In this document: one piece after another, positions 30,794 to 57,767 of the stretch
Layout of the letters: each line of letters opens with the position of its first letter
Numbering within the stretch: position 1 is the stretch's first letter
Assembly: GCF_000621165.1 (NCBI RefSeq)
Contig: NZ_JHZA01000001.1
Span: 930,001 to 994,000 of the forward strand
Origin: Enterovibrio calviensis DSM 14347
GTDB lineage: Bacteria; Pseudomonadota; Gammaproteobacteria; Enterobacterales; Vibrionaceae
DNA: 64,000 nucleotides
Direction of reading: 5' to 3'
Program-made: the position numbers and the translations under genes
Notes under the pieces: generated by a model
Database searches by the model: none
What the model was told of the DNA's origin: nothing
What the model saw: only the letters and a program-made list of their open reading frames with translations

Positions 30794-30811
30794 CGATCTT
30801 GTCTCCCTATC

Positions 30812-31458: not shown

Positions 31459-31561
31459 CTTGTCCCTTTTTGATGGCGCTCACTACATCGGCAAAGGGGC
31501 GCCTAGATCATAACGTCAGTCAAGCTCGCTGAATCATGCATTTTCAGGTCGTTAGGGTATT
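31459..31561 (+). repeat. Right-end fragment of the MITE-like element
   Basis: About 100 bases matching the right third of the element at 30812-31077 (GTCCCTTTTTGATGG start, CACTACATCGGCAAAGG, CGTCAGTCAAGCTCGCTGAA, then GCATTTTCAGGTCGTTAGGGTAT) with scattered substitutions. The surrounding gene-free stretch 31106-31780 is A+T-rich, and I see no gene or known RNA in it. Confidence 0.75.
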
Positions 31562-41253: not shown

Positions 41254-43884
41254 ATGGTTTTCTACAAAAATAAAACGGCATCGTTGGTTATCCTATCATT
41301 GCTACTTTCAGCCTGTGGCGGGGGAGGTGGCGGAGATTCTTCAGCCGGAGGTGGGTCTGACGGTGGTGGCGGTTCAGACAGTGGTTCAGGTAGTGGCTCA
41401 GATAGCGGAACCCAAACATCGAACTATACGCAAATCGCATTTGATCTACGTAACGCCTCTACTTTAGTGACCACCGAGAAAGCGTTTTCTCAAAGCCAAT
41501 TAAGGGCAGAATTGTCGAGTGGTGGCAATAAATATGAATCGCTACCTTCGGTACAATTTCACGAGTTTGTTGGGGCAACGGATAAACAAACCCATTCTAC
41601 AGGCTCTGGGAGTACCAACTTATTCTCACTTGGCGCTGACGGGGCGCTTTCACCCGTCGTAACTTCTGATTTTGATGCGAATTTTTCGTTTACCGTGAAA
41701 AGTCCAGACGGGAAGCATGTATATGCTGCGTTGGATTGGTCGAATTACTACACCAGCTCCTCTTTGGTGAGAGAAGAAAACTGCGCCATCTTCAAAATCA
41801 CCATCGCGGATAATAGTGTAAGTTGCCTTGTTGAAGGCCTTTTTGCTGAAGCCCCTTGGGGTACTTGGTGGAAAGAAGTTAATGATGGACGCTACAAACC
41901 TATTCAGTTTGATAGCCAAAATAACGTGTACTTTTTGAGCCGTGGATTTACGGTGACAACGTTGAATCCCGGTACAGACATTGAATTCAAGTCAATCGAT
42001 TACTCACTTCTTGGGAATTCCACGTTAGTGAGAGTGGATAGTGAAACAGGCAAAGTAGTATCCATGACCTCGGATGCTGACCGAGTGAATAGTTTTGTTG
42101 TGACTGCTGCCGATGCATTGGTGTATCGAACCGATACATTAAACATGATCCCCAATGTGATGGCGACATCTCTTAGTACTGTGACACTGACAGAAGGCAC
42201 ATATTGGACCGATGGCTACTATGCGACCGACGACAATGGCACAGTAATTTATCGCGATAATCTCACGGCTAATGACGATATTAGCATTGCCAGAGCCAGT
42301 GACGACTTCGAGGGTGGCATAGAAAAACGCACAATTAAGAGTTATCGCCCAGACAGTTTGAGCTGGTCAAACCGAGTGATTGTTGGTGATGATGGTTACA
42401 TCTACAGTATGTATGCCACTTACGAAGATGATTCTGAAGGTGACTTTAGTAGATACGAAAAGATGCAGCGTATTTTGCCTTATGCCGCTGGAGAAGTTCT
42501 TGCTGTAAAAATACCTGATCTTGGGTATTGGAAGACGCCGCTTCATGTATCAAAAGGGAATGCCTACTATGTCGAAGAGCAAACCCATCCTGCCTACGGT
42601 CAGTATGATATTGTTGGCGTTCAGCCATTATCGGGTGAGTCAGCAACCCTCCTATTTGGCGATGCGCTCAGCGACGTTCGCTTAGACATTGAAACCTGGA
42701 AACTCAGCGGTGACACCATCTACTTCACCGGGCTTAACAATGCAAAAAGCACCATGGTGAGTGGGACTATCGATGTTAAAGCGCTCGCTGAAGGCCGTCC
42801 GCAGTCTGAATACTTGGTGCTTGGTGATACCGCGTCTGTTTCTGAGGATGTACTGGAGATACGCGACTTAGAGTTGTTAGTTAGCGAAGAAGATCGTGTA
42901 AATGTGGGCGCCCCCGAAATCACTCATCATATTCAACCTCAAGAAGAAGTCTACGCCAGTACGATCGAATTCAACCATTGGATGGATATCGATAGTGTGT
43001 CAGCGAATATGAGTGTGACTGAGCGTGATCAATTTGGTGGTTATGTGGAAGACGTGGATGTCATGCCAATTTGGCTCGGTAAGGTCGTCCACCTTATCTA
43101 TGATACGGCAAGCGGCTCTGGCAGTTCGTCAAATCAACCGCTGAAATTTGGCACAGACTATCAGATTTCTTTCGGTGGTGATGGTAGAAATCTGGAAGGT
43201 GTTCCTCTGTCAGTCTCTCAAAGTGATAGTGAACGTACTTTCGATTGGTCAACACGCATCGAGAAAGGATTAACGATTGTTGATGCGGAAGCTGACAACT
43301 ATGGCTTTACCACGGGCAAAGCCATCAATGTATTTGGGACCAATGTAAAAATCCCGCTCATCGATCGTGAAAGAGAGTTTGACCACAAGCTCTCTTTGGT
43401 TTCGGCACTTAATGAAAATTGGGAGTTAGCATTTCATACCACTTCAAGTGAATGGAAGGGCTACATCAAATATGACTATTTGGCGATCACTGGTTCATTA
43501 CACATATTGAAACATAGCGATAATATCAGTGATGACCGAGATTGGTTGTTTGAAGATCCGAAAGTGATAGGTTCTGTGGTGAAAATGGACGCAGAGCTTG
43601 TTGAGAATAATGGCAAAATTGTCTTCAGCTTAAAAATCACTGATGAAGCTGGTGACACTTATGACGTATCAAGAGAAATTGATCACTTGGATGAAGATTA
43701 CTCGCTGACGTATACGTTTGATGACAATGGCTTTGGCGCAGAGTATCGCAGCATTTTAGACAATATTTTGCTTACCAATTCAGATGGCACAACCACATAT
43801 ATTGATGAAAACTTCGATAACTACGAGTTAGGGAGTGGTGATTATATCGGTGGTATTGGCGTGGTTGAACTTGTGGACGACTAA
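41254..43884 (+). CDS. Large surface lipoprotein, function unknown
   Basis: An 876-residue lipoprotein: lipobox LLLSACGGGGGG, then a Gly/Ser/Asp-rich tether (residues 22-55) typical of surface-exposed lipoproteins. Residues 110-530 are beta-rich with propeller-like phrases (HVYAALDWSNYYTSSSLVRE, NNVYFLSRGFTVTTLNPGTD, DGYIYSMYATYEDDSEGDFS). Around 560-660 is a Big_5-like Ig segment (EITHHIQPQEEVYASTIEFN, MDIDSVSANMSV). The C-terminal 200 residues look like a jelly-roll or LamG-type binding domain (HKLSLVSALNENWELAFHTT, NFDNYELGSGDY). An adhesin or glycan-binding role is possible but not shown. It is preceded by a long leader region and followed by a terminator. Confidence 0.8.
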   Translation: MVFYKNKTASLVILSLLLSACGGGGGGDSSAGGGSDGGGGSDSGSGSGSDSGTQTSNYTQIAFDLRNASTLVTTEKAFSQSQLRAELSSGGNKYESLPSVQFHEFVGATDKQTHSTGSGSTNLFSLGADGALSPVVTSDFDANFSFTVKSPDGKHVYAALDWSNYYTSSSLVREENCAIFKITIADNSVSCLVEGLFAEAPWGTWWKEVNDGRYKPIQFDSQNNVYFLSRGFTVTTLNPGTDIEFKSIDYSLLGNSTLVRVDSETGKVVSMTSDADRVNSFVVTAADALVYRTDTLNMIPNVMATSLSTVTLTEGTYWTDGYYATDDNGTVIYRDNLTANDDISIARASDDFEGGIEKRTIKSYRPDSLSWSNRVIVGDDGYIYSMYATYEDDSEGDFSRYEKMQRILPYAAGEVLAVKIPDLGYWKTPLHVSKGNAYYVEEQTHPAYGQYDIVGVQPLSGESATLLFGDALSDVRLDIETWKLSGDTIYFTGLNNAKSTMVSGTIDVKALAEGRPQSEYLVLGDTASVSEDVLEIRDLELLVSEEDRVNVGAPEITHHIQPQEEVYASTIEFNHWMDIDSVSANMSVTERDQFGGYVEDVDVMPIWLGKVVHLIYDTASGSGSSSNQPLKFGTDYQISFGGDGRNLEGVPLSVSQSDSERTFDWSTRIEKGLTIVDAEADNYGFTTGKAINVFGTNVKIPLIDREREFDHKLSLVSALNENWELAFHTTSSEWKGYIKYDYLAITGSLHILKHSDNISDDRDWLFEDPKVIGSVVKMDAELVENNGKIVFSLKITDEAGDTYDVSREIDHLDEDYSLTYTFDDNGFGAEYRSILDNILLTNSDGTTTYIDENFDNYELGSGDYIGGIGVVELVDD

Positions 43885-43905
43885 ACGTCGATAACGTTGA
43901 CTGTA

Positions 43906-43939
43906 TTAAAAAATCCTCGATTCGTCGGGGATGTTTTTT
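43906..43939 (+). terminator. Rho-independent terminator after the large lipoprotein
   Basis: ATCCTCGA and TCGGGGAT pair (one wobble) around a TTCG loop, with A-run before and six T after. Confidence 0.85.
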
Positions 43940-44023
43940 GCTTGTCTATCGTGCTAGCGTTTATTGGAAGGTGCATTGAATATGGTGCGTTGAAGATGGC
44001 GCATTGAAAAGGAGGATTGGCTT

Positions 44024-44446
44024 ATCGACATTCGAGAGATTACTTGGCAAGAGACAATCGATATTCGCCATCGTGTGTTGTGGCCTGAGAAACCCGCTTC
44101 ATTTTGTGAATTAGACGGCGATGCCGATGCATTGCACCTAGGCGCGTTCATTGAAGGGCAACTTGTGTGTGTCGCGTCGGTGTTTGTTGATGGCAATCGC
44201 GCTCGATTGAGAAAGTTTGCCACGCTGCCTGAGTACCAAGGGCAGGGTATCGGCGGGGCTGTTCTTTCTATTTTGTTGAACGGCGACTTTCTTTCCGATC
44301 ATGGCGTCGAGTGGTTTTGGTGTGATGCCCGTGAAGCGGCAATGGGGTTGTACCAGCGCTTTGGTTTGTCGCCAGAGGGCGAGCGTTTCTACAAAGGCGA
44401 CATCCCGTATTTCAAAATGGGTATATCCCTCCCATCAAGTGCTTGA
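44024..44446 (+). CDS. GNAT-family N-acetyltransferase with a non-standard start
   Basis: About 140 residues. The acetyl-CoA site is FATLPEYQGQGIGGAVLSIL and the C-terminal EWFWCDAREAAMGLYQRFGL is typical GNAT. The sequence upstream of the first ATG/GTG/TTG (44072-44075) is clearly part of the protein: DIREITWQETIDIRHRVLWP is the usual start of this subfamily. In that frame no ATG, GTG or TTG exists between the stop at 43991 and 44072. AAGGAGG at 44009-44016 lies eight bases before an in-frame ATC (44024), which I take as the probable start. A mutated start codon or sequencing error is the alternative. Substrate unknown. Confidence 0.7.
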   Translation: MDIREITWQETIDIRHRVLWPEKPASFCELDGDADALHLGAFIEGQLVCVASVFVDGNRARLRKFATLPEYQGQGIGGAVLSILLNGDFLSDHGVEWFWCDAREAAMGLYQRFGLSPEGERFYKGDIPYFKMGISLPSSA

Positions 44447-44700
44447 TATCGAGTGACAGAAGAGTGCAAACGTTGCACAACAAAAGGGCTTGGAGCATCT
44501 TGAATTTCGTTGGGAACTATCAAACCATCTATAGAAATGAAGATAAAACAATCAGATAAAAAAGTGGCAAGGGGTTTGCTATGTAATTAGTGTGCGTAAG
44601 GCACATGTCCTACAGACATAAAACGTTTACTCCTTGCTGTTAAAATTTGTTCCTCTGCACGTTTGATATCATGTCGGTTGGCAGAGGAACCTTCTTTTTC
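44445..44700 (+). repeat. Structured direct repeat R1 upstream of the guanidine operon (candidate RNA)
   Basis: A 256-base segment starting at the GNAT stop codon that recurs at 55000-55243 in the same orientation. It contains an outer stem, GCAAGGGGT (44567-44575) with ACTCCTTGC (44629-44637). That stem encloses two hairpins, TGTGC/GCACA (44591-44605) and ATGTC/GACAT (44605-44619), followed by a perfect 10-base-pair hairpin, GTTCCTCTGC (44649-44658) with GCAGAGGAAC (44681-44690), and a T-rich tail. This looks like a small RNA or leader ending in a terminator. The further gap 44701-45093 holds no gene that I can support. Confidence 0.6.
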
Positions 44701-45093
44701 TTCATATCTACCTTTTGTCTCATTGTTTCCAGCATTCACTTCTCACCTGAATTTTATATATCAGAGACAGCGTAGCGTTCTCTTCTTCACAGAATATTCC
44801 AGCGCGTCACTTGATTTTCTTGTGCTTTTTGTACGTGCGGCAAAGGGTTATTTCAGTGCAAGCCATGCACAATATCGGAGCAAAAGATGGGATTCGATAG
44901 CGTACGGATGCCTATAAATCCAATTAATTCAATGAGGTGAAGAATTGGCAAGGTCATTGCTAATACATTTATTAATAGCGAGCCAAAGATGTATCGGCGA
45001 CAGCAGTGTAATCGCTATCGTTGATTGAAACTCGGGGTGAAACGAAATGATCGCTAATCACCCACTGCTATTAATACAATTTGAAATAGACAA

Positions 45094-45226
45094 CTAGGGT
45101 TCCGGCTTTTTCCTTCTGAAGAATATTCCAACGTGTGTTGGTTTACACATCAACAAGGTAACAGTGACTGGTCCGAGAGCTGTCAACCTCACCAGAGGTC
45201 ACACGGAGGGATAAAAGCCCGGGAGA
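45094..45226 (+). ncRNA. Guanidine-I (ykkC) riboswitch
   Basis: All three conserved blocks of the ykkC class I guanidine aptamer are present and in order: CTAGGGTTCCGG (45094-45105), ACTGGTCCGAGAG (about 45167-45179), and ACACGGAGGGATAAAAGCCC followed by GGGAGA (45201-45226). A variable arm lies between the first and second blocks. It lies 57 bases before the binding-protein start and heads an operon for guanidine import and breakdown, the most common context for this riboswitch. Guanidine binding should switch the operon on. I do not see a clear terminator stem between aptamer and gene, so control of translation or an alternative stem is possible. Confidence 0.92.
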
Positions 45227-45283
45227 TGAACGCAGATATCTCTTTGGCTCCGTCAGTTTGTGAAACTCAAGGTAGAGGTAATT

Positions 45284-46387
45284 ATGAAAAAGTTCTCTTC
45301 AATACTCCGCAACATCACGTCAACGCGAAAGACAATGTCCCGTTTAGTGTTAGCGACCGCATTGTCCGTCTCATTTTTATCAACCCCCGTTACGGCAGAA
45401 GACAAACCCACTTTTCGTTTAGCGTGGTCAATCTACGTGGGATGGATGCCGTGGGATTACGGCAACAATGCAGGGATCATTAAAAAATGGGGCGACAAGT
45501 ACGACGTCAATATTGATGTGGTTCAGGTGAATGATTACATCGAATCCATCAACCAATATACCGCGGGCTCATTCGATGCCACCGTCATGACCAACATGGA
45601 TGCATTGACGATTCCTGCTGCCAGTGGCGTGGATTCAACGGCCTTGATCGTCGGCGACTTTTCAAACGGCAATGACGGCATTGTGCTTAAAAGCACCGAT
45701 AAACTCGCGGATATTAAAGGCCAGCGTGTGAATCTCGTTGAACTCAGTGTGTCGCACTACTTGTTGGCTCGTGCGCTAGAAACCGTCGATATGACCGAGC
45801 GCGACGTGACCGTGGTGAATACCGCTGACGCTGACTTGGTTCCGGCGTTTGCGACGGAAGATGTAACCGCAGTGACGACATGGAACCCACTGTTGGCTGA
45901 AATCACCAAGATGCCAAGCGCAAACATGGTGTTTGATTCCTCAAAAATCCCGGGTGAGATCATCGATTTGCTGGTCGTGAACAGCGACACGTTGGCGCAA
46001 AACCCTGCGTTAGGGAAAGCACTCACTGGTGCGTGGTACGAGATCATGGCGACCATGCAGAAAGACGACGAAGCAGGCGAGAAAGCCTTGATGTTTATGG
46101 CTGAAGCCTCTGGGACCGATCTGGCGGGTTATAAAGACCAACTGGCTTCGACCAAGATGTTCTACCAACCTTCAGAGGCCGTTGCCTTCACTGAATCCGC
46201 GGCGCTGAAAGAGACAATGGCAAAAGTGGCTGAATTCTCGTTCGAACACGGCTTGCTCGGTGATGGTGCGCCAGACGCTGGCTTCATTGGTATTGAAACC
46301 CCTTCAGGTGTGTATGGTGACGAGCAAAATATCACCCTCAGATTCAACCCTGAATACATGCAAATGGCAGCAGATAACGCGCTGTAA
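45284..46387 (+). CDS. Guanidine ABC transporter binding protein (NMT1/SsuA-type)
   Basis: A 367-residue periplasmic binding protein starting at the ATG after AGAGGTAATT, with a signal peptide of about 38 residues ending STPVTA. The fold is the nitrate/taurine/NMT1-like family (FRLAWSIYVGWMPWDYGNNA, SFDATVMTNMDALTIPAASG, GQRVNLVELSVSHYLLARAL). Genes of this type next to urea-carboxylase-type operons were first labelled urea transporters but are now assigned to guanidine import where a ykkC riboswitch is present. First gene of the operon. Confidence 0.88.
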   Translation: MKKFSSILRNITSTRKTMSRLVLATALSVSFLSTPVTAEDKPTFRLAWSIYVGWMPWDYGNNAGIIKKWGDKYDVNIDVVQVNDYIESINQYTAGSFDATVMTNMDALTIPAASGVDSTALIVGDFSNGNDGIVLKSTDKLADIKGQRVNLVELSVSHYLLARALETVDMTERDVTVVNTADADLVPAFATEDVTAVTTWNPLLAEITKMPSANMVFDSSKIPGEIIDLLVVNSDTLAQNPALGKALTGAWYEIMATMQKDDEAGEKALMFMAEASGTDLAGYKDQLASTKMFYQPSEAVAFTESAALKETMAKVAEFSFEHGLLGDGAPDAGFIGIETPSGVYGDEQNITLRFNPEYMQMAADNAL

Positions 46388-46396
46388 GGTGGCTTT

Positions 46397-47221
46397 ATGA
46401 CTCGGATTATTAACCGAAAGCCATCTGCATTTGGACGAACAATTCTGGCGTGTTTGCCGTTTGTTCTGTTGATTGTCGGTTACTTGATAGCGTCAGACGC
46501 GAGACTGGCGATCAACCCAAATGACAAGCTGCTTCCTTCGTTCGATAGCTTCGCCGCTGCCATTGATCGCATGGCATTCGAGCCGAGCAAAAGAACCGGC
46601 GAATACCTGCTTTGGGCCGACACATGGGCGAGCTTGCAGCGCCTGTGTCTCGGCGTGGGTATTAGTGCGTTGCTGGCTTTAACCTTGGGTGTGGCAAATG
46701 GCATGATCCCTTACGTGCGAGCGCCGATGTCACCCGTGGTGCGCGCTTTGTCACTGATCCCGCCGATGGCGATATTGCCCATCTTGTTTATTGCTTTGGG
46801 CTTAGGTGAGTTGTCAAAAGTCGCACTGATCATCATTGGTATTACGCCAATGATGATACGCGACCTCCAACTTCGTACCGAAAGCCTTCCAAGCGAGCAA
46901 ATCATCAAAGCCCAAACCTTGGGCGCAAACTCATGGACCCTCATGGTTCGCGTTGTGTTGCCACAAGTGATGCCGAGATTGATAGAAGCGGTTCGCCTCA
47001 CCTTAGGTAGCGCTTGGCTGTTCTTGATTGCAGCGGAAGCCATTGCTGCAACAGAAGGATTGGGGTATCGCATCTTCTTGATTCGTCGTTACTTGGCGAT
47101 GGATGTCATTTTGCCTTACGTGCTTTGGATAACGATTTTGGCGTTCCTGATGGATTGGGCGCTACAGAAGCTGTCTGCCAATCGTTACCCGTGGTTTCAC
47201 GCACAGGGAGGGAAGTCTTAA
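46397..47221 (+). CDS. Guanidine ABC transporter permease
   Basis: A 274-residue inner-membrane permease of the SsuC/TauC/NrtB type with six helices. The EAA loop is EQIIKAQTLGANSWTLMVRV, followed by VLPQVMPRLIEAVRLTLGSA. An unusual periplasmic segment of about 50 residues (SDARLAINPNDKLLPSFDSF) follows the first helix, as in other members of this subgroup. Starts nine bases after the binding-protein stop; its stop codon shares a base with the ATPase start. Confidence 0.9.
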   Translation: MTRIINRKPSAFGRTILACLPFVLLIVGYLIASDARLAINPNDKLLPSFDSFAAAIDRMAFEPSKRTGEYLLWADTWASLQRLCLGVGISALLALTLGVANGMIPYVRAPMSPVVRALSLIPPMAILPILFIALGLGELSKVALIIIGITPMMIRDLQLRTESLPSEQIIKAQTLGANSWTLMVRVVLPQVMPRLIEAVRLTLGSAWLFLIAAEAIAATEGLGYRIFLIRRYLAMDVILPYVLWITILAFLMDWALQKLSANRYPWFHAQGGKS

Positions 47222-48048
47222 TGGAATTAAATGAAAAAGGCGCGCCGTCGAGCCAATCAGAGACACCGATCATCGAAGCAAAAGGTCTGTGGAAAGAGTA
47301 CGGCAGCCATGTGGTGATTGAGCGTCTTAACATCCAAGTGATGGCGGGCGAATTCATCAGTATTTTGGGAACGTCAGGGTGCGGGAAATCAACGTTTCTC
47401 AACATGCTGTTGGGCACGCAAGCGCCGTCGCGTGGCCAATTGTTGCTGGATGGACAACCACTCAGTTCTGAACCCGGCCCTGAGCGAGGCATCGTGTTTC
47501 AGAAATACTCCGTGTTTCCACACATGACTGCGCTTCAGAACATCATGGTCGCTGATGAACTCGAACTGAGCCGTTTAACCGGCAAAGTCTGGGGCAGTGG
47601 CAGAGCCGCGTTGAAAGACAAAGCCATGGCGCAATTGGAAAAGCTCGGGCTTGCCCATGCGGCTGACAAATATCCGGCAGAAATGTCAGGCGGAATGCAG
47701 CAACGCTTGGCGATTGCGCAAGCATTGATGAAGAAGCCGCGCATTTTGCTTTTGGATGAACCCTTTGGCGCACTTGACCCAGGTATTCGCAAAGACATGC
47801 ACGCATTGATCAATCAGATATGGCAGGAGCAAAAGCTCACCATTTTCATGATCACGCATGACTTACATGAAGGCTTTAAGTTGGGGTCGCGGCTTTGGGT
47901 GTTTGACAAGCCACGCTTTGATCCTCAAGAGCCAGAACGCTTTGGCTCGCAAGTCACGTTTGATATTCCACTGAATTCCGGTGGCCAAGACGCGTTAATA
48001 GCCAGCTTGCAGGCCAAGCAGCAGGCCAACGAGAAAAGCGTCGCTTAA
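47221..48048 (+). CDS. Guanidine ABC transporter ATP-binding protein
   Basis: A 275-residue ATPase. Walker A GTSGCGKST, Q-loop IVFQKYSVFPHMTA, signature MSGGMQQRLAIAQA, Walker B ILLLDEPFGALD, switch histidine MITHDLHEGF. It starts in a TAATG overlap with the permease. The frame is open further upstream to 47014, but that part overlaps the permease and is not used. It energises uptake by the two preceding gene products. Confidence 0.92.
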   Translation: MELNEKGAPSSQSETPIIEAKGLWKEYGSHVVIERLNIQVMAGEFISILGTSGCGKSTFLNMLLGTQAPSRGQLLLDGQPLSSEPGPERGIVFQKYSVFPHMTALQNIMVADELELSRLTGKVWGSGRAALKDKAMAQLEKLGLAHAADKYPAEMSGGMQQRLAIAQALMKKPRILLLDEPFGALDPGIRKDMHALINQIWQEQKLTIFMITHDLHEGFKLGSRLWVFDKPRFDPQEPERFGSQVTFDIPLNSGGQDALIASLQAKQQANEKSVA

Positions 48049-48089
48049 ACATGACCGCTACGCGAGTAAACAGTAAGGAGAACATAAAC

Positions 48090-48815
48090 ATGGAACTAAA
48101 GAGTTTGTTTTACCACCGATATGTAGGTGGTCAACACGGTGGATTAGAAGTGCCCGCGGGTTACACCCTTCGATTGACAGACATTGAAGGGGGAGCGAAC
48201 ACGAGCTTATTGTTCTTCAACCCTCGTAACCCCCTAGAGCGCATCAACTTGCCTGATACGCTCAAATGCCAGCACACATTCAAGCTGACGCAAGGCCACT
48301 GTGTGTATTCCGACATGGGGCGTATTTTTTGCTCCATCGTGAAAGACGATACCGGTTGGATAGACAGTGTCGGCGGCCTGAGTCACAAAGCCCAGGTAGA
48401 GAAAGCATGGGGCGTGCGCGACTATCAAACGCATCGCAACGACTGGCTACAAAACGGCCATGACGCCATGCTGGTGGAAATGGCGAAGTTTGGTCTTGGA
48501 TTACGAGACTTAGCGGCCACCCTTAACGTGTTCAGCAAAGTTGAAACCACCGACGAAGGAAAGCTCTCTTTCGTGCAGGGACGAAGCAACCCCGGCGCTG
48601 TCGTTGAATTACGCTTTGAAATGGACACCATTGTTCTGTTTAGCACCTGCCCGCATCCCATGAACAAAGCTGCCACCTATCCTAGAGATCCTGTTGATGT
48701 CGAAATGGTGAAGTCTGCGCCTGTGTCTGCCGACGACGCCTGCTTAAACCACTGCGATGAAAACCGACGTGGGTTTACCAACACTCGCCAATATCAGCCT
48801 GTCAGCCTCGGTTAA
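48090..48815 (+). CDS. Carboxyguanidine deiminase subunit (urea-amidolyase-associated protein, DUF1989 family)
   Basis: A 241-residue cytoplasmic protein from the ATG at 48090, nine bases after AAGGAG; an in-frame ATG at 48051 has no site. It belongs to the DUF1989 family: YHRYVGGQHGGLEVPAGYTL, then RLTDIEGGANTSLLFFNPRN. Metal-binding residues of this fold lie near SCPHPMN-like and CLNHC-like motifs (FSTCPHPMNKAA). In guanidine operons the two DUF1989 proteins form the heteromeric carboxyguanidine deiminase (CgdA/CgdB) that turns carboxyguanidine into allophanate. Which subunit is A or B is not settled here. Confidence 0.85.
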   Translation: MELKSLFYHRYVGGQHGGLEVPAGYTLRLTDIEGGANTSLLFFNPRNPLERINLPDTLKCQHTFKLTQGHCVYSDMGRIFCSIVKDDTGWIDSVGGLSHKAQVEKAWGVRDYQTHRNDWLQNGHDAMLVEMAKFGLGLRDLAATLNVFSKVETTDEGKLSFVQGRSNPGAVVELRFEMDTIVLFSTCPHPMNKAATYPRDPVDVEMVKSAPVSADDACLNHCDENRRGFTNTRQYQPVSLG

Positions 48816-48839
48816 GCACCCTCTATTAAGGAGCATAAG

Positions 48840-49484
48840 ATGATTAAAGAAAGTGAACTCACCCTTGATAACGCCGTTTCTCGTGACACTGTCGATGCGG
48901 GCGACTACTACCTGAAAATCGTCAAAAAAGGCGAGCGTGTTCGTATCACCGATCTCGAAGGCAACCAAGCCGCAGATACGCTGTTCTATAACGCCAGTAA
49001 CCCGACCGAGCGTTACAGCGCCATGGATACCCTGCGTGAACAAGGCAATGCCTACTTAACCGCAGAGTCTGTGCTGATCTCGAATTTGGCTAATCCCATG
49101 CTCGACATTGTCGCGGATACCTGTGGTCGTCACGACACCTTAGGCGGCGCATGTTCTACCGAAAGTAACACGGTACGTTACGCCCACGAAAAACGCTGTA
49201 TGCATGCATGTCGAGATTCATGGTTGCTGGCGGTTGCCGAGAACCCTGAATATGGCCTCACCAAGCGAGATATCAGCCATAACATCAACTTCTTTATGAA
49301 CGTGCCCGTAACTGCGGAAGGCGGGCTGACGTTTGCTGATGGCATCAGTGCGCCGGGCAAATACGTCGAGCTTGAAGCCAAAATGGATGTGCTCGTCTTG
49401 GTATCGAACTGCCCTCAGTTGAACAACCCTTGCAACGCGTACAACCCGACCCCGATTGAAGTCGCGGTATGGAACGCGGCATAA
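48840..49484 (+). CDS. Carboxyguanidine deiminase second subunit (DUF1989 family)
   Basis: A 214-residue paralogue of the preceding gene, starting after AAGGAGCATAAG at 48840. DUF1989 signatures are [40 protein letters not shown] and [18 protein letters not shown], and the end [20 protein letters not shown]. Conserved Cys/His residues in the centre and C-terminus are expected to bind the catalytic metal. It forms a complex with the upstream product. Confidence 0.87.
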
Positions 49485-49604
49485 GCAAAGTTAACGAGTC
49501 ATAAAGGTGAGGGACGACCCTAGCGCTAACTGACACTGGTTCAGTGATGGCGATACACCTTCAGTCTTAATGTGGGACGACCCAACGAATTGAAGACAGA
49601 ATTT

Positions 49605-52600
49605 ATGTTTAAAAAAGTGTTGATTGCAAACCGCGGAGCGATTGCATGTCGGATCATCCGCACGTTAGATGCGATGGGTATCGCGAGTGTGGCGGTTTAT
49701 CACGAAGACGATGCCGCCAGCTTGCACACGCGAAACGCGACCGAGGCATTTAGTCTGGGTGAAGGAAGTGCCGCTGAGACGTATCTCAACATGGACAAGG
49801 TGATTCGCATCGCCAAAGAAAGTGGCGCAGAAGCGATTCATCCCGGTTACGGTTTTTTAAGTGAAAACCCAGATTTCGTGGCAGCGTGTGAACGCGAGAA
49901 CGTGGTGTTTCTTGGCCCAACACCGCATCAGATCAATCAATTTGGATTAAAGCACACGGCGCGAGAACTTGCAGAACACGCAAACGTGCCATTGCTGCCC
50001 GGCACAGGCTTGCTTTCAAGCATTGAAGAAGCACTCTCAAGTGCAGAGGTAATGGGTTATCCCATTATGTTGAAAAGCACCGCGGGTGGCGGTGGGATCG
50101 GCATGCGTTTTTGTGAAAATGCCGACCAACTGAAAGAAGCGTTTGACGCAGTAAAACGCCTCGGTGAAGCCAATTTTAGCCATAGCGGCTTGTTCATGGA
50201 AAAATTCATCACCGCAGCACGCCACATTGAAGTACAAGTGATAGGAGATGGCGAAGGGAATGTGATTGCCCTTGGCGAACGTGACTGCTCGGCACAACGT
50301 CGCAACCAAAAAGTCATGGAAGAAACGCCAGCCCCGAATCTGGATGAAAACACACGCCAAGCGCTGCAAGAGACTGCAATTCAATTGGCCGCTTCCGTGA
50401 ACTATCGCAGTGCTGGCACCGTCGAGTTCATTCTTGATCAATCCACCCAACAGTTTTACTTCCTTGAAGTGAACACACGCCTGCAAGTAGAGCATGGCGT
50501 GACAGAAATGATTTTTGGCATTGATATCGTCAAGCTGATGGTGGAAATCGGTGCGGGAGAATTTCATGCGAGCTGGATAGAAGCGAAAAGCGCCCCAAGT
50601 CGCGGTCATGCAATTCAATTCCGTCTCTATGCCGAAGATCCTAATCGACAATTCCAGCCCTCGACTGGGTTGATCACGTCGCTGGCATTTCCATACGGCA
50701 TTGAAGCGAATCAGGTGGCGACACAAGACAATGGCAGCACTATTCGAATAGATACATGGGTAGAATCCGGCGTGGAAGTTAGCCCATTTTTCGACCCCAT
50801 GATCGCCAAAGTGATGGTACATGCCGATGACCGTGAAACGGCACTGGATGACATCGCTGACTTACTCGACCAAACACAGTTGTACGGTATCGAAACCAAC
50901 CTTGCGTATTTGGCGCAACTTGCCGTAGAGCCGATGGTGAAAAACGGCGAAGTGCTGACTGCCAGCCTTGCATCGTTTGATTACCAGCCGTTAACCGTTG
51001 ATGTACTGTCGAGTGGCACACAAACCACCATTCAAGATTTTCCTGCACGAAGCGGCTATTGGCACGTGGGCATTCCGCCTTCTGGGCCGATGGACAGTTT
51101 AAGCTTCCGTCTTGGAAACCAATTGCTGGAAAACGAAGAAACCTGTGCAGGGTTGGAGATCATTGCCAATGGCCCGTCATTGCGATTTAACCAGCCGACA
51201 CAAATTGCCATCACTGGGGCGGATATTGCTGTTCAAGTGAATGGAGAACACGCGCCGATGTGGACGGTGATCGACATCAAGAAAGGTGACACGCTGGCAC
51301 TTGGTGCCATGTCAGGCGCGGGAGCGCGAGCCTACTTGTTGATCAAAGAAGGCTTCAATTGCCCTGAATATCTAGGAAGCCGCTCTACGTTCACCTTGGG
51401 CAAGTTCGGTGGACACGCAGGGCGTGCGCTGATGGCGGGTGATGTGCTTCATCTCAATGCAGCCAATTTCGACAAAAGCCTTTCCGCGCGCACCATGGAA
51501 CGCCCTGATATGGGGATGATTCATACACTGCGCGTGATCTATGGCCCACATGGTGCGCCAGATTTCTTTACCGCGAACGACATTTCAGCCTTCTTTGACG
51601 CCGATTGGGAAGTGCATTTTAACTCAAGCCGAACGGGCGTTCGCCTGATTGGTCCTAAGCCGGAATGGGCGCGCACTGACGGTGGAGAAGCTGGGCTTCA
51701 CCCATCAAACATACATGACAATGCCTATGCCGTGGGCACGGTCGATTTCACTGGAGACATGCCCGTGATCTTGGGGCCTGATGGCCCAAGTCTGGGTGGT
51801 TTTGTGTGTCCTGCCACCATCATCAAAGCCGATTTGTGGAAGATGGGGCAACTGAAAGCGGGCGACAAAGTGCGCTTTCAGCCTGTTTCTATGATGGACG
51901 CTGAAGATGCGGAAAAGCACCAGAGTGTGGGTATTTCGCAACTGGCATCTCACGAATTGGGTCTGGCGCATTCCATGCCGAGCACACCGATTCTTAAAAC
52001 CCTCGCCGCCGAGCAATATGGCGAAGATGTGGTGTATCGACCGAGTGGAGAAGATTTCTTGCTTGTCGAATACGGCCCTCAAATGCTGGATATCCGACTG
52101 CGTTTTCGCGTTCACGCACTCATGATGACGCTCGAAAACATGGGCGTTGCGGCGATCAAAGAACTCACGCCAGGCATTCGTTCACTGCAGGTGCATTACG
52201 ACAACTTGCAGTCATCATGTCAGGACATGCTAGCGATCCTTGAGCGCGCCGAAGCAGCGATTGGGGATATTTCACAGCTTACCGTGCCGTCGCGGGTCGT
52301 TCACCTTCCGTTGTCGTGGGATGATCCTTCCATTCAAATGGCGATGCGCAAATATGACGAAGTGGTGCGCAAAAACGCGCCGTGGAGCCCGAATAACATC
52401 GAGTTCATTCGTCGTATTAACGGGCTTGAAAGCATCGAGCAGGTGAAGAACATCGTGTTTGATGCGAGCTATTTGGTGATGGGGCTAGGCGATGTCTACC
52501 TTGGCGCACCTGTTGCTACGCCGATGGATCCCCGTCATCGATTGGTCACCACCAAATATAACCCTGCCCGCACATGGACGCCGGAAAATGCCGTTGGTAT

Positions 52601-53234
52601 TGGTGGGGCGTATATGTGTGTTTATGGCATGGAAGGGCCGGGCGGCTATCAGTTAATGGGCCGCACACTCCAAATGTGGAACCGCTATGGCAAGGGCAAA
52701 GCCTTTAGCAAACCTTGGCTGTTGCGCTTCTTCGACCAAATCCGCTTTTACCCCGTTTCGCACGATGAACTCACCGATATTCGTCGCGATTTTCCGCGAG
52801 GTCAGTTCGACGTTCGCATCGAAGAAACGCAATTCAGCCTTGCTGAATACGAAGCCATGCTTGAGCAAGAAAAAGAGACCATTTCGGCGTTCAAATCATC
52901 ACAGCAACAAGCCTTTGACGAAGAGCGTCAACGTTGGGAAGAAAGTGGTGAAGCGAACTTTGTCGCCGAAACGGTGGCAGAGCAAAGTGCGGACGATGAG
53001 GTGCTGGAAGCGGGGCAGTTCGTGGTTTCCAGCCAACTCGCCGGAAATGTCTGGCAATTACTGGTGTCTCCTGGCGACACGATTGAGGTAGGGCAGCCTC
53101 TACTCATTGTTGAGTCCATGAAAATGGAAATCGAAGTAACAGCGACCGAATCCGGTCGAGTGGTTCAATTTGCCAAACAAGAAGGCGAACAAGTTCGTGC
53201 AGGTCAAACGTTGTTAATTATGGAGCAGATCTAA
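49605..53234 (+). CDS. Guanidine carboxylase (biotin-dependent, urea carboxylase family)
   Basis: A 1209-residue three-module enzyme. Residues 1-450 are biotin carboxylase (FKKVLIANRGAIACRIIRTL, ATP-grasp GGGGIGMRF, EVNTRLQVEHGVTEMIFG). About 480-1080 are the carboxyltransferase made of the KipA/AHS2 and KipI/AHS1 domains (GYWHVGIPPSGPMDSLSFRL, TKYNPARTWTPENAVGIGGA). The C-terminus is a biotin carrier with VESMKMEIEV, biotinyl lysine K1173. It carboxylates guanidine with ATP and bicarbonate to carboxyguanidine. The ykkC riboswitch and the CgdAB-type neighbours favour guanidine over urea as substrate. A frame extension to 49572 lacks a site. Its stop overlaps the next ATG by one base. Confidence 0.9.
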   Translation: MFKKVLIANRGAIACRIIRTLDAMGIASVAVYHEDDAASLHTRNATEAFSLGEGSAAETYLNMDKVIRIAKESGAEAIHPGYGFLSENPDFVAACERENVVFLGPTPHQINQFGLKHTARELAEHANVPLLPGTGLLSSIEEALSSAEVMGYPIMLKSTAGGGGIGMRFCENADQLKEAFDAVKRLGEANFSHSGLFMEKFITAARHIEVQVIGDGEGNVIALGERDCSAQRRNQKVMEETPAPNLDENTRQALQETAIQLAASVNYRSAGTVEFILDQSTQQFYFLEVNTRLQVEHGVTEMIFGIDIVKLMVEIGAGEFHASWIEAKSAPSRGHAIQFRLYAEDPNRQFQPSTGLITSLAFPYGIEANQVATQDNGSTIRIDTWVESGVEVSPFFDPMIAKVMVHADDRETALDDIADLLDQTQLYGIETNLAYLAQLAVEPMVKNGEVLTASLASFDYQPLTVDVLSSGTQTTIQDFPARSGYWHVGIPPSGPMDSLSFRLGNQLLENEETCAGLEIIANGPSLRFNQPTQIAITGADIAVQVNGEHAPMWTVIDIKKGDTLALGAMSGAGARAYLLIKEGFNCPEYLGSRSTFTLGKFGGHAGRALMAGDVLHLNAANFDKSLSARTMERPDMGMIHTLRVIYGPHGAPDFFTANDISAFFDADWEVHFNSSRTGVRLIGPKPEWARTDGGEAGLHPSNIHDNAYAVGTVDFTGDMPVILGPDGPSLGGFVCPATIIKADLWKMGQLKAGDKVRFQPVSMMDAEDAEKHQSVGISQLASHELGLAHSMPSTPILKTLAAEQYGEDVVYRPSGEDFLLVEYGPQMLDIRLRFRVHALMMTLENMGVAAIKELTPGIRSLQVHYDNLQSSCQDMLAILERAEAAIGDISQLTVPSRVVHLPLSWDDPSIQMAMRKYDEVVRKNAPWSPNNIEFIRRINGLESIEQVKNIVFDASYLVMGLGDVYLGAPVATPMDPRHRLVTTKYNPARTWTPENAVGIGGAYMCVYGMEGPGGYQLMGRTLQMWNRYGKGKAFSKPWLLRFFDQIRFYPVSHDELTDIRRDFPRGQFDVRIEETQFSLAEYEAMLEQEKETISAFKSSQQQAFDEERQRWEESGEANFVAETVAEQSADDEVLEAGQFVVSSQLAGNVWQLLVSPGDTIEVGQPLLIVESMKMEIEVTATESGRVVQFAKQEGEQVRAGQTLLIMEQI

Positions 53235-54997
53235 TGGAATTCTCATCAATTCAATCCCTGTTGGATGCTTACCGAGAAGGCGACATCACGCCAGACGATT
53301 ATTTGCGTCAGCAATGGAAATCCGCGCAATCCGACGCTAACCATTGCTGGATTTCAGTGATCAGCGAAGCGCAGCTAGACGGCTATCTAAAGGCACTGAA
53401 AAACAGCAGCCCTTTGACGAAACCACTATACGGCGTGCCGTTTGCCATAAAAGACAACATCGATTTGCTGGGGCTTCCTACCACGGCGGGTTGTAAGCAA
53501 TTTGCCTATTCACCGGGGCGTTCAGCGTTTGTGGTGCAAGCATTGATCGACGCGGGTGCTGTGCCGATCGGTAAAACGAACCTCGACCAGTTTGCGACCG
53601 GACTTAACGGAACACGAAGCCCATACGGGGCGTGTAAAAATAGCATTGACCCAGAATACATTTCTGGTGGCTCAAGCGCGGGCAGCGCGGTGTCGGTAGC
53701 GCTAAAACAAGTGTTGTTCTCGCTAGGCACGGACACGGCAGGGTCTGGGCGTATTCCCGCCGCGTTTAACCGTTTAGTGGGCATGAAAGCCAGCATTGGC
53801 AGAATTAGCTGTCGCGGTCTGGTGCCTGCATGCCGAACACTTGATTGCATCACCTTATTTGCCCATTCGGTGGATGACATTGATTACTTGTTGCCGATTG
53901 CAGGGCAATACGATCCGTCTGACAGCTATGCTCGTGATTTTTCTGACAGCGATGCCGCAGCCAGCATGTCGGCGTTTGACGCGCCTCGAATTGGGGTGCC
54001 GCGGGAAAGCCAACTTGAGTTCTTCGGCAATGACAATTACATGCACCGATTCTCAGCGAGCAAAGCAAAATGTGAATCGTTAGGCGCGGAATTGGTCGAG
54101 CTAGATTTCAGCCCATTCTTGGAAGCGGCAGCATTGTTGTATCACGGCCCTTGGGTGGCAGAGCGCTATGCAGCGATTCAAGAGTTTTTCGATGATCATG
54201 AAACCCACTGCGATCCGGCGATTCAAGCCATTGTAGGGGGAGCACGTTCATTGACGGCGGTGGATGCTTTCAATGCACAATATGAATTGCAGGCACTAAA
54301 AAAACGATGCGATGCGATTTTGCAGTCGGTGGATGCTGTTTTAACGCCAACGGCGGGGAGCATTTATACCATTGCAGAGATGCTTGAAGACCCAATCCAA
54401 CTGAACACGAACCTCGGCTTTTATACCAATTTTATGAACCTGCTGGATTACGCCGCCATCGCCATTCCTGCAGACGATGACACTGACGCCATGCCGTTCG
54501 GGATCACCCTGTTTTCCGATAAGGGAACAGAGCCAAGATTACTGGCTTTGGCAAAGGCGTATTCGGAAGGCTCAGCATTCAAGGTGAGTGATGGCGTACC
54601 AGAATCCATTGTGATTGCCGTGTGCGGCGCGCACATGAATGGCTTGCCGCTCAATCATCAATTGGTGAGTCGTCAGGCGTCATTTTTGGAGAAGAAGCGC
54701 AGTGCGGCACGTTATCAATTCTTTGCCTTAGAGGGCGAAGGACCTAAACGTCCGGGTATGGTGAGAAAAAACAAGGGCGGAAACAGAATCGAACTGGAGC
54801 TTTGGGAGATGCCAATGTCTCGGCTTGGAGATTTCCTCGCAGGTATTCCTCATCCGCTCGGGCTGGGCAAAGTGGAGTTGGAGGATGGCTCGTGGGTGAC
54901 AGGGTTTATTTGTGAAGAAGCGGGCGCAACGGGTGGCCGTGATATCTCGCACTATGGCAGCTGGCGCGAGTATTTAGCGAGCAACACCGCGCCTTGA
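53234..54997 (+). CDS. atzF: Allophanate hydrolase
   Basis: A 587-residue amidase-signature enzyme that cleaves allophanate to ammonia and carbon dioxide. The Ser-cisSer-Lys triad is visible as the lysine in PFAIKDNIDLLGLPTTAGC, the Gly/Ser block ISGGSSAGSAVSVALKQ and the serine of LGTDTAGSGRIPAAFN. A C-terminal domain of about 130 residues (VVCGAHMNGLPLNH-like start near 460) matches the AtzF C-terminal domain that acts on the intermediate N-carboxycarbamate. Overlap with the carboxylase gene (TAATG) couples translation. It is the last gene of the riboswitch operon; repeat R2 follows directly. Confidence 0.95.
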   Translation: MEFSSIQSLLDAYREGDITPDDYLRQQWKSAQSDANHCWISVISEAQLDGYLKALKNSSPLTKPLYGVPFAIKDNIDLLGLPTTAGCKQFAYSPGRSAFVVQALIDAGAVPIGKTNLDQFATGLNGTRSPYGACKNSIDPEYISGGSSAGSAVSVALKQVLFSLGTDTAGSGRIPAAFNRLVGMKASIGRISCRGLVPACRTLDCITLFAHSVDDIDYLLPIAGQYDPSDSYARDFSDSDAAASMSAFDAPRIGVPRESQLEFFGNDNYMHRFSASKAKCESLGAELVELDFSPFLEAAALLYHGPWVAERYAAIQEFFDDHETHCDPAIQAIVGGARSLTAVDAFNAQYELQALKKRCDAILQSVDAVLTPTAGSIYTIAEMLEDPIQLNTNLGFYTNFMNLLDYAAIAIPADDDTDAMPFGITLFSDKGTEPRLLALAKAYSEGSAFKVSDGVPESIVIAVCGAHMNGLPLNHQLVSRQASFLEKKRSAARYQFFALEGEGPKRPGMVRKNKGGNRIELELWEMPMSRLGDFLAGIPHPLGLGKVELEDGSWVTGFICEEAGATGGRDISHYGSWREYLASNTAP

Positions 54998-54999
54998 TT

Positions 55000-55243
55000 G
55001 ATATCGCGTGATACAAGAGTGCAAACCTTGCACAACAAAAGGGCTTGGCACATCGAAATTTTCGTTGGGGACGATTAAACTATTTATAAAACAATTAGAT
55101 AATAAAGTGGCAAGGGGTTTGCAATGTAACTAACGTGCGTAAGGCACATGTCCAACAGACATAAAACGTTTACTCCTTGTTGTTAAAATTTGTTCCTCTG
55201 CACGTTCGATATTATGTCGGCTGGCAGGGGAACCTTCTTTTCC
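55000..55243 (+). repeat. Structured direct repeat R2 downstream of the guanidine operon
   Basis: A 244-base second copy of R1 (44445-44700), starting three bases after the allophanate hydrolase stop. Long blocks are identical (GTGCGTAAGGCACATGTCC, then CAGACATAAAACGTTTACTC), with one 12-base gap relative to R1. The outer stem is kept: GCAAGGGGT (55110-55118) with ACTCCTTGT (55172-55180), a G-C pair becoming G-U. The terminal hairpin GTTCCTCTGC (55192-55201) with GCAGGGGAAC (55224-55233) changes one A to G, which still pairs with U. A T-rich tail follows, so it may also terminate the operon. Confidence 0.7.
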
Positions 55244-55447
55244 TCAACGTACAAATTCCTCTATTTAACCTCTCATCAATCAGCCTTCATCTCAATTCGT
55301 TTAGTGCTTTTTCATTTGTTCCTATTTCTTCTGGGTTCTATGTCGAGAATTTTTCTCAGCGTTTGTAGCGGTATGTATACAGCTTGTCTTCCCATGCCAA
55401 TCTACCCTCTGATGGCATACCAAGAAATAGAATGAAAGGTGATGAAA

Positions 55448-56287
55448 ATGGCAAAGGTAATTGTATTGATTCACGGGCGCTCAAATAAGCCCGCGCCAGC
55501 GACATTAAAAGACAGCTGGATTGAAGCCATCAACGAGGGATTAAGAGCGAATACGGCGCTGACGTCACTGGGCGACACCCAAGTCGAAATGGCGTATTAC
55601 GCTGATTTGCATTATACAAGTGGCCCTGTGGATGATGCTAATAACACCGAACCCTATAAAAAAGCAGAATCAGGCGCGATCAAGCGATACAAAAAGGGCT
55701 TCCTTGACCGAATAAGAACGTTGTCCGGCAATTGGATTGAAGGGGTGATTGATAACGTTGAAGAATACAGCGGCGTGTTTTCAGGGCTGGCGCGAAGTGT
55801 CGCCAAGAATCTGCTAGAAGACTTGGGCAAGTACTATAGTCAACCTGCTTTTCGCAACAGCGTGGACAAGCGGCTTGAAGATATACTGAAAAAGCATCGC
55901 AACGACGAAGTCATTCTCATTTCCCATTCCATGGGCACTATTGTGTCTTATGAAGTACTGCGCGATCTGGGTAAAACGGGCTATCAGCTTGATCACTTTA
56001 TCACCATGGGGTCGCCACTTGGCATGGCGGCAGTACAAGGTAATATGCTGAACCATCTAAACCAACTTCGTACCCCATCTTGTGTGACAAACTCTTGGGC
56101 GAATTTCTCAGACCCAGGTGACTACGTGTGTATTGATACCCACCTTGCCGATGACTACAGCCGTAACAGCACCCACATTGGGGTGAAAGATCATTTGGTC
56201 TGCAATGATTACCCAAACAACGAACATAAATCATACGGCTACCTGCGTACCCCTGAGTTCTCTGAACACTTAGCATCGCTGTTGTAG
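55448..56287 (+). CDS. Alpha/beta hydrolase (lipase/esterase-like)
   Basis: A 279-residue cytoplasmic hydrolase. The first strand and oxyanion region read KVIVLIHGRSNKPAPATLKD, the nucleophile elbow is ISHSMGTIVSYE, and later acid and histidine candidates lie in FSDPGDYVCIDTHLAD and GVKDHLVCNDY. The nucleophile motif SHSMG deviates slightly from GxSxG at its first position. A helical insert of 90 residues lies between. The ATG at 55448 has AAAGG eight bases before it; other in-frame starts lie at 55439 and 55442. Substrate unknown. Single gene ending at a strong terminator. Confidence 0.82.
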   Translation: MAKVIVLIHGRSNKPAPATLKDSWIEAINEGLRANTALTSLGDTQVEMAYYADLHYTSGPVDDANNTEPYKKAESGAIKRYKKGFLDRIRTLSGNWIEGVIDNVEEYSGVFSGLARSVAKNLLEDLGKYYSQPAFRNSVDKRLEDILKKHRNDEVILISHSMGTIVSYEVLRDLGKTGYQLDHFITMGSPLGMAAVQGNMLNHLNQLRTPSCVTNSWANFSDPGDYVCIDTHLADDYSRNSTHIGVKDHLVCNDYPNNEHKSYGYLRTPEFSEHLASLL

Positions 56288-56307
56288 TGGTTAACAGTGG
56301 CAATAAA

Positions 56308-56338
56308 CAGAGCCGGCAAATGTCGGCTCTGTTTTTTT
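56308..56338 (+). terminator. Rho-independent terminator after the hydrolase
   Basis: CAGAGCCG (56308-56315) and CGGCTCTG (56324-56331) then seven T. Confidence 0.9.
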
Positions 56339-56903
56339 GGTGATCAAGCGCCTAGTTATGGGGTTATATGGGGAAGGGAGTCGGTGAGTAGGAGATTGAT
56401 AGCAGGCCTATTGGATGAGCATATTCGATAGGTGATGGAGAGGCGGCCTAGGCTGCTTTTGGACAAAAGTGAGTTGGCGTTGGTGCTCTAAGCCATGCTG
56501 TTCAGATAAGTTGAGTTTGTGAAAAAAGTCTCACATGTATCTAATGAATCGGTGGCTATTCAAATAACACCATCAAAAGCATCTTCCTTATGGAAGTCTG
56601 GAGGCCACATGCGAGAGTGCGTGTGGCTTTTCACTGGCTCACCCAGTTACAACTCCATCAACTTTTTGGTGCGAGCTTTTGCTTTACGCCCACCCAACAA
56701 CCTTAGGGGAAAATGCACGACAACCCACAAGAATTTCGAACGAGAATGCACTTCAAATCTTGTGTTCTCAACGTCCTGTACAAACATGCTTCGAAATCAG
56801 TTTATTGTTTGTGCAAACGATTTTAGTACTGACAATAATCAATTGTTCAAGAAGGCTAACCACTTATAATCAGCCGTTTTTTTGCAGATTGGTTGGTAAC
56901 ATC

Positions 56904-57767
56904 TTGAGTATAAATAAACTAAAAATCTCAACACTCGCATTGTCGATTTTTGCCGTCGCTGGATGTGGTGATAGTGGTAACGAAAGTAAAGGCTACACCG
57001 ATGAACAGGTGGCGAGTGCAGTAAAATGTACAAACCAAGCTGAAGGTGGCTTGTGTGAAAATAATATCGGAGGCAATACTTGGGGTGTGATTGACAACTT
57101 CTACCCAGATAACTGCAACTCTGGCATATATTGCTTTGATGATGGCTCCGAAGCACCGCAAAACCCCGGGTTAACGCGATTTGTCGAAGGAACACTGATC
57201 CCTGTTTACTATCGAGACAAGATTGATCCACGTTTCGTTGCGACCATGGATTATATCGAGGGTTTAGTGGGCTATCAGATGTTTGAGCGCAAAGGCGTGG
57301 TTAATATTGACATCTCTGACCCCAATAACATCGACCTATCCAGTTTAGATACCGATTGGGGATTCATACTAAGCCAAGGTACTTCAATTGGCTTAATGAG
57401 TGGTTTCTGTAGTCAGGGAACTGTCTCTGTTGCACCGTATTCGTACAACATCACATCCCATATCGTTTCTGCAACTGACTACGGCATTAAATACCCTGCA
57501 GCTAAATGGGGTAAAGATCATAAATTTACATGGGTAAATTTAGACAGTGTTACTGGCGCCAATAACGGGCTGATCACCTGCAGTGCAACTGCGCCACAAG
57601 CTGTTGCGACCCATGAGTTTGCACATGCTTTAGGCTTGAACAATCATTTTAGTGGATTTGGCTTTGATGGTGCGTGGGGGAAAAATGCTGAACGTGTTTT
57701 GAAGACGATGTACAGCGGTCAAAATCCGCAAGGGCAACCATTTGATAGTTTGATTGTAGAAAATTAA
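56904..57767 (+). CDS. Metzincin-type metalloprotease lipoprotein (matrixin-like)
   Basis: About 287 residues from a TTG at 56904 (MSINKLKISTLALSIFAVAGC), giving a normal lipoprotein signal with lipobox FAVAGC; no ATG fits. The longer open frame from 56679 is not signal-like. The zinc motif ATHEFAHALGLNNHF is HExxHxxGxxH of the metzincins, and KTMYSG 28 residues later is a plausible Met-turn. The mature N-terminal part has several Cys pairs (AVKCTNQAEGGLCENN, NCNSGIYCFDD). It is likely anchored in the outer membrane facing the periplasm or outside. The family within the metzincins (matrixin/DUF) is unclear. Confidence 0.75.
   Translation: MSINKLKISTLALSIFAVAGCGDSGNESKGYTDEQVASAVKCTNQAEGGLCENNIGGNTWGVIDNFYPDNCNSGIYCFDDGSEAPQNPGLTRFVEGTLIPVYYRDKIDPRFVATMDYIEGLVGYQMFERKGVVNIDISDPNNIDLSSLDTDWGFILSQGTSIGLMSGFCSQGTVSVAPYSYNITSHIVSATDYGIKYPAAKWGKDHKFTWVNLDSVTGANNGLITCSATAPQAVATHEFAHALGLNNHFSGFGFDGAWGKNAERVLKTMYSGQNPQGQPFDSLIVEN

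Follow-up and report, generated by a model that had tools for sequence, protein, structure and literature searches.

Two long direct repeats flank the guanidine operon in the window, by which we mean the whole 64-kb stretch of Enterovibrio calviensis DSM 14347 DNA that was analysed. Judging from its sequence, the repeated element, which we named R (copies R1 and R2), is very probably a sigma-54–driven small RNA (sRNA) gene that is duplicated here and has not been described previously. A sequence-only reading of this DNA had reported two direct repeats of ~250 bases with a 12-base gap, had placed R1 at the stop codon of a GNAT gene and R2 by that of an allophanate hydrolase gene, and had called the element unclassified, all of which was confirmed. 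The copies lie on the same strand and show 82% identity across the first 97 bases and 92% across the last 159, their alignment has a single 12-base gap, and R1 and R2 start at the GNAT and allophanate hydrolase stop codons, respectively. Between them, in agreement with the same reading, an Rfam match and gene families identify a Guanidine-I riboswitch and an operon for a transporter, UAAP1, UAAP2, urea (guanidine) carboxylase, and allophanate hydrolase, where we take UAAP1/UAAP2 to be the CgdA/B subunits; no class II riboswitch exceeded the Rfam threshold in the window. The only strong matches to R in the 5.5-Mb genome are R1 and R2, a third match being 17 bases long with an E value of 0.36. 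With R1 as query there was no match in the plasmid/phage collection at E 1e-5, and no Rfam family overlapped R1 (E up to 10), or either copy in L044/L087, the loci containing both (E up to 5). A literature search, with most subscription papers outside its scope, returned no such sRNA in Enterovibrio/Grimontia or on guanidine operons in the accessible text, including that of PMC10162802, PMC12186494, and PMC12508155.

Anatomy and origin of R

For comparison we used 329 Vibrionaceae genomes, 18 of which belong to the Enterovibrio/Grimontia group (labelled G000 onward, G000 being the genome of the window). BLAST and the order of genes in relatives supplied the R copies for a 10-row alignment that preceded any motif search, and a GTGCA-N5-TGCAC dyad together with a TGGCA-N6-TTGC box of the sigma-54 type was present in 10/10 rows. 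The R of G015 was first found by its dyad and promoter alone and was then seen to have the core and the terminator as well. Spacing is tight: the dyad and box are 74 to 75 bases apart in 10 of the 11 copies (86 in R1, which has a 12-base insertion), and the box lies 45 to 47 bases before the seed, except in G004 and G015 (65 to 66). This seed, an anti-Shine-Dalgarno stretch reading TTACTCCTTG-Y-TGT, occurs in all 11 copies and is invariant in 13/14 columns of the 11-row alignment. Outside it, ungapped identity is 0.43 in the dyad–promoter spacer and 0.42 in the 5' part of the RNA; because the pattern used for this comparison fixed the dyad, promoter, and seed, the values for those three parts are no evidence of conservation.

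A scan that required at least 5 T in the 9 bases after the hairpin gave a terminator hairpin and T-rich tail in 11/11 copies, with energies of −17.7 to −27.5 kcal/mol. In the lower stem of the hairpin 96/99 pairs are standard, with both sides changed in a compensated manner at 3/9 positions. When R1 was compared to shuffled sequences, folding gave a z of −2.7 on the plus strand and −1.0 on the minus strand. The predicted RNA would be ~98 to 112 nucleotides long across the 11 copies; whereas anatomy, conservation, and terminator are observed, transcription and its start site are what we infer from them. The features are collected in Table 1.

Table 1. Coordinates of R, its parts, and associated features (window positions unless a locus is named)
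Feature	Position	Strand	Basis or remark
R1, whole conserved element	44440..44701	+	pairwise comparison and genome search
R1 dyad GTGCA-N5-TGCAC, candidate enhancer (upstream activating sequence)	44464..44478	+	pattern search; conserved in aligned R copies
R1 sigma-54 (-24/-12) promoter TGGCA-N6-TTGCT	44565..44580	+	alignment and pattern search
Predicted sRNA 1	44591..44697	+	putative start 12 bases downstream of the -12 C
R1 seed (anti-Shine-Dalgarno stretch, almost invariant)	44627..44640	+	13/14 columns invariant, 11 copies
R1 intrinsic terminator hairpin and U-rich tail	44649..44699	+	folding, stem comparison
Dyad upstream of guanidine operon promoter, same as that of R	44856..44870	+	pattern search
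Sigma-54 promoter of guanidine operon	44946..44961	+	pattern search
Guanidine-I riboswitch (RF00442)	45083..45227	+	Rfam, 76.6 bits
UAAP1 ribosome-binding site, proposed sRNA pairing site	48069..48089	+	pairing prediction
UAAP1 (TIGR03425), fourth gene of the operon, proposed target	48090..48815	+	family match
R2, whole conserved element	54995..55244	+	pairwise comparison and genome search
R2 dyad GTGCA-N5-TGCAC	55019..55033	+	pattern search
R2 sigma-54 promoter	55108..55123	+	pattern search
Predicted sRNA 2	55134..55240	+	inferred from sequence anatomy
R2 seed	55170-55183	+	T in place of the R1 C at one position
R2 intrinsic terminator hairpin and U-rich tail	55192..55242	+	folding, stem comparison
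Alpha/beta-hydrolase-like gene	55439..56287	+	directly after R2 here; after the single R in G006, G013
R-like signal-peptide starts, guanidine/urea transporter binding protein	L036:14653-14728; L041:8646-8723	-; +	G002, G015

In its 3' half, R is similar to the sequence for the signal-peptide start of a substrate-binding protein, with identities of 78% in G002 and 74% in G015, each over 80 bases. The likeness is in the sense orientation, includes the hairpin arms, and runs into a T-rich stretch, and in both genomes the R-like stretch encodes a signal peptide in frame. R and this signal-peptide start thus likely share descent, in either direction; if true, a coding start was turned into an sRNA or the reverse. 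The same identities could be taken to mean that R is a functionless, decayed relic of the 5' region of the operon, made of its promoter and the signal-peptide start of the binding protein. However, one would not expect a relic to retain, across 10 genomes, an almost unchanging seed, constant promoter spacing, and a terminator with compensated changes, and we consider this explanation very improbable.

Distribution and gene order in relatives

We derived a covariance model from nine R copies and ran it with strict filters across the 329 genomes, a search that the sequence-only reading had recommended; the matches were confined to the Enterovibrio/Grimontia group (11/18 genomes). The model did not detect the stand-alone R of G015, and its matches in G002 and at G015:C1:103585 correspond to the binding-protein fragment; two others, at G008:C103 and G015:C1:291282 (E 0.002 to 0.01), have no dyad–promoter and were taken as chance. 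Stand-alone R is present in 10/18 genomes of the group, with two copies here and one in each of nine others (G003, G004, G006, G008, G009, G010, G013, G014, and G015; 9/17). With one or two copies per genome, R is not a dispersed repeat of the REP/ERIC type, an option that we rejected. An 18-base piece of the R core matched named records of Enterovibrio (E. baiacu, Enterovibrio sp. ZSDZ42, E. norvegicus FF-33, and Enterovibrio sp. JCM 19048) and Grimontia (G. celer, G. indica, and G. marina), the E. baiacu match being to the binding-protein gene. Three matches of this 18-base pattern outside Vibrionaceae were taken as chance, and pattern matches in G002:C28, G058, G196, and G217 were judged to be chance after inspection.

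Gene order varies around R. In G003, G008, and G009 it runs MscS-like channel, GNAT, small gene, R, riboswitch, operon, and DUF4156 gene, while in G006 and G013 the order is GNAT, R, a homologue of the hydrolase at 55439, other genes, riboswitch, operon, and DUF4156 gene. In the window we found GNAT, R1, operon, R2, hydrolase, another open frame, and DUF4156 gene. The DUF4156 gene follows R directly in G014 and at ~1.8 kb in G004, two genomes where no operon was found in the 20 kb examined and no riboswitch in the genome. G015 has R and the operon on different contigs, and G002 has the operon but no stand-alone R.

These arrangements bear on the idea, put forward in the sequence-only reading, of a cassette that recombination between R copies had inserted or duplicated; R would then be a recombination site or the end of a mobile element. 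A single R at sites without the operon had been named as support for a cassette, and operon carriers lacking R as evidence against it. The former is indeed seen in G004 and G014, and the operon of the window is bracketed by two direct copies, but a single stand-alone R is also present in six other operon carriers (G003, G006, G008, G009, G013, and G015), which means that the operon does not form a unit with R at both ends. Moreover, in G003, G006, G008, G009, and G013 the operon is followed ~100 bases on by the DUF4156 gene with no R there, G002 is just such a carrier lacking R, and R itself has the architecture of a promoter and a terminator. We therefore regard a cassette as highly unlikely. 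The same reading had alternatively seen in R a 3'-end regulatory RNA attached to both upstream transcripts. The regulatory RNA part of that proposal survives, but attachment to the GNAT and allophanate hydrolase transcripts does not, since R has by sequence its own sigma-54 promoter and terminator. Starting at both stop codons and ending in a terminator-like hairpin, R does look like a 3'-end regulatory or terminator element in the window; yet a small gene separates GNAT from R in G003, G008, and G009, G014 has no GNAT match, and R itself contains the sigma-54 box and dyad in 11/11 copies, which leaves this alternative with very little credibility.

Core identity is 0.91 between R1 and R2 and 0.77 to 0.84 between either of them and R of G013 or G006, and this greater mutual closeness fits a duplication within this lineage. 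Judged from gene order, a local rearrangement does lie behind the second copy, the piece that differs being R2 with the hydrolase. Long direct repeats around an operon can thus be duplicated regulatory genes rather than the ends of a cassette.

The region from the MscS-like channel gene to the DUF4156 gene (window 40996-58700) is variable in the genus: which of GNAT, hydrolase, an 876-residue open frame that matches no family, and other genes are present around R and the operon differs between genomes. Elsewhere in the window, a small gene on the minus strand (30512-30841) without Pfam match has homologues that adjoin R in G003, G008, G009, G010, and G014, and two repeats near it (30932-31079 and 31456-31560) recur beside R in G009.

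A promoter type shared with the guanidine operon and a predicted target within it

The dyad occurs three times in the window (0.11 expected; 0/100 shuffles reach three) and so does the sigma-54 pattern (0.60 expected), in both cases confined to R1, R2, and the operon promoter. Across the 329 genomes, the dyad and box were found together in 16 places, i.e., 11 R copies, 4 guanidine-operon promoters, and 1 chance-like match in G270 (gap of 63, no seed) that we discarded; 15 are within the genus, and a reversed-pattern control gave 0. The operon promoters with the exact dyad and box are those of the window, G002, G003, and G015, all just upstream of the riboswitches, and a sigma-54 box precedes the riboswitch in 8/8 operons. 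Samples of 400 kb from G000 and G003 did not contain the dyad. R is therefore probably co-regulated with the guanidine operon by a common activator. Some observations count against this: the sigma-54 pattern alone reaches three occurrences in 3/100 window shuffles, the exact dyad is present at only 4/8 operon promoters, with a 4-base spacer in G008 and G009, and the dyad–promoter search found no dyad match at the operon promoters of G006 and G013.

We looked for the activator among the 19 PF00158 matches in this genome, of which 16 are strong; an R-type dyad was found at none of those 16 loci. A LuxO paralogue (L139) is present at at least 75% identity in 15/18 genomes of the group, though incomplete in G014, and G007, G010, and G016 lack it. 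Among these three, G010 has R, and G001, G005, G011, G012, and G017 have the paralogue without R, so there is no clean match for L139 as the activator. NtrC recognizes sites of the GCACC-N5-GGTGC type. Such an enhancer is present near glnA in this genome and absent from R, where the half-sites of the dyad are reversed relative to glnA-type sites, and NtrC is thus not indicated. The rare enhancer of R should help to reveal its sigma-54 activator.

The seed suggests that the RNA might act on ribosome-binding sites (RBSs). Among 16 gene starts in the window, the best predicted pairing of the seed was with UAAP1, where R1 would form 12 contiguous pairs including one G-U, followed by a bulge and 5 more pairs. 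We compared this to shuffled seeds for six operon genes (without the ATPase gene) in each of eight genomes, giving 8 UAAP1 rows and 40 others. In each of the seven genomes with R and operon, at most 2/300 shuffled seeds matched the UAAP1 pairing, whereas 191/300 did as well in G002, which has the operon and no R and for which a consensus R was used. The lowest value among the 40 other rows was 0.013.

As a second background we used RBSs from samples of ~464 kb (own genome) and 420 kb (G003), ranking only genes with a recognisable Shine-Dalgarno sequence (291 in the former; 257 in the latter, or 274 with L040) and applying a 50-base context to all in the final comparison. UAAP1 ranked first of 274 in G003 and, for R1, sixth of 291 in the own genome. 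RBSs doing as well numbered 0/291 and 0/257 for G003, 3/291 and 0/257 for G008 and G009, and 6 to 7/291 and 3 to 4/257 for R1 of the window, G006, and G013, the window count including UAAP1 itself; for G002 they were 190/291 and 173/257. When UAAP1 was given a 39-base context against the 50-base background, counts were 55/291 for G015 and 258/291 for G002 and the same as before for the other genomes. The predicted pairing is hence strong in three Grimontia genomes (G003, G008, and G009), moderate for R1, G006, and G013, and absent in G002.

Several points speak against UAAP1 as the target. The gene was initially chosen because it scored best among 16 starts, R1 has stronger pairings with five further RBSs of the own-genome sample, and R2 does not single out UAAP1 (rank 41st; 41/291 and 33/257 RBSs do as well), while R of G015 does so weakly (19/291 and 14/257). 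Counts from genomes of the same clade are not independent of one another. Finally, R with its seed is also present in G004, G010, and G014, three genomes that gave no riboswitch match, so UAAP1 cannot be the only use of R. A search of the 18 genomes for seed complements with up to three mismatches gave counts like the control. Whether UAAP1 is a real target is, on these predictions, an even call for us. The competing view is that R tunes other mRNAs and functions under the same activator and that its match to UAAP1 simply follows from having an anti-Shine-Dalgarno seed. This view would account for the RBSs that pair as well or better elsewhere in the own-genome sample, for the intact seed in the three genomes without a riboswitch match, and for R2; it sits less well with the first rank of UAAP1 in G003, its place in the top 1 to 2.5% for R1, G006, G008, G009, and G013, and the absence of complementarity in G002, the genome without R. 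We give it a substantial chance, somewhat short of even.

Separately, among 30 seed-complement places that we inspected, the RBS of a prolyl-oligopeptidase-like gene (named by sequence reading; L215, minus strand) is perfectly complementary to the R1 seed over 11 bases, at G000:C1:76392, and is the best-pairing start for R1 in the own-genome sample.

A proposed circuit and its relation to known systems

We propose that R encodes a trans-acting sRNA of roughly 107 nucleotides from two gene copies in this genome. Binding of a sigma-54 activator to the dyad would switch on R and, through the same dyad and box, the guanidine operon. The sRNA would then most likely pair across the UAAP1 RBS in the middle of the operon mRNA and lower UAAP1 translation, so that transporter and enzyme output might not be strictly coupled, forming an incoherent feed-forward loop superimposed on riboswitch control. 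Taken as a whole, a three-layer circuit, in which an undescribed sigma-54 activator acts on a riboswitch operon and on an sRNA that pairs at UAAP1 to uncouple uptake from breakdown and shares ancestry with the transporter signal-peptide start, is a tentative and rather doubtful proposal. How guanidine uptake is coordinated with breakdown is less clear than the riboswitches are. At this locus an sRNA and a riboswitch would converge on the same operon, a proposal that can be tested, and close relatives provide natural variants that have the operon without R or R without the operon.

R is best read as belonging to a known kind, the sigma-54–driven sRNAs. The Qrr sRNAs of Vibrionaceae are ~100 nucleotides long, depend on LuxO and sigma-54, have an upstream activator dyad and an intrinsic terminator, and are present in several copies in some species. 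R is similar in its predicted length, sigma-54 promoter, upstream dyad, intrinsic terminator, and multiple copies, but it has GTGCA-N5-TGCAC and a different seed. Qrr (RF00378) gave no match at R1 (E up to 10) or in L044/L087 (E up to 5), and a true Qrr lies beside LuxO in this genome (L137:2631-2729, 83.6 bits), with a LuxO-type TTGCA-N3-TGCAA site. The LuxO site given in the accessible text of PMC10162802, TTGCAWWWTGCAA, does not occur in the upstream part of R, which has its own dyad instead.

R also shares with nitrogen control by NtrC and sigma-54 the placing of a sigma-54 promoter on nitrogen-acquisition genes, although its dyad half-sites are reversed. Spot 42 is not known to be encoded beside gal, unlike R, whose gene adjoins the operon and has a common promoter type with it. 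The two are alike in that Spot 42 acts on galK inside galETKM (PMC8577784 and PMC10020718, in their accessible parts), an internal gene start of a polycistronic mRNA, a pairing that for R is predicted.

A comparable operon is that of Vreelandella boliviensis, for which the accessible text of PMC12508155 describes a Guanidine-I riboswitch with transporter, carboxylase, cgdA/B (carboxyguanidine deiminase/hydrolase subunits), and allophanate hydrolase genes, and a class II riboswitch inside the operon. The riboswitch and the gene set are the same here, and the internal class II riboswitch is a precedent for extra internal control of the pathway. The extra layers that set the E. calviensis locus apart are a sigma-54 promoter and a neighbouring predicted sRNA gene.

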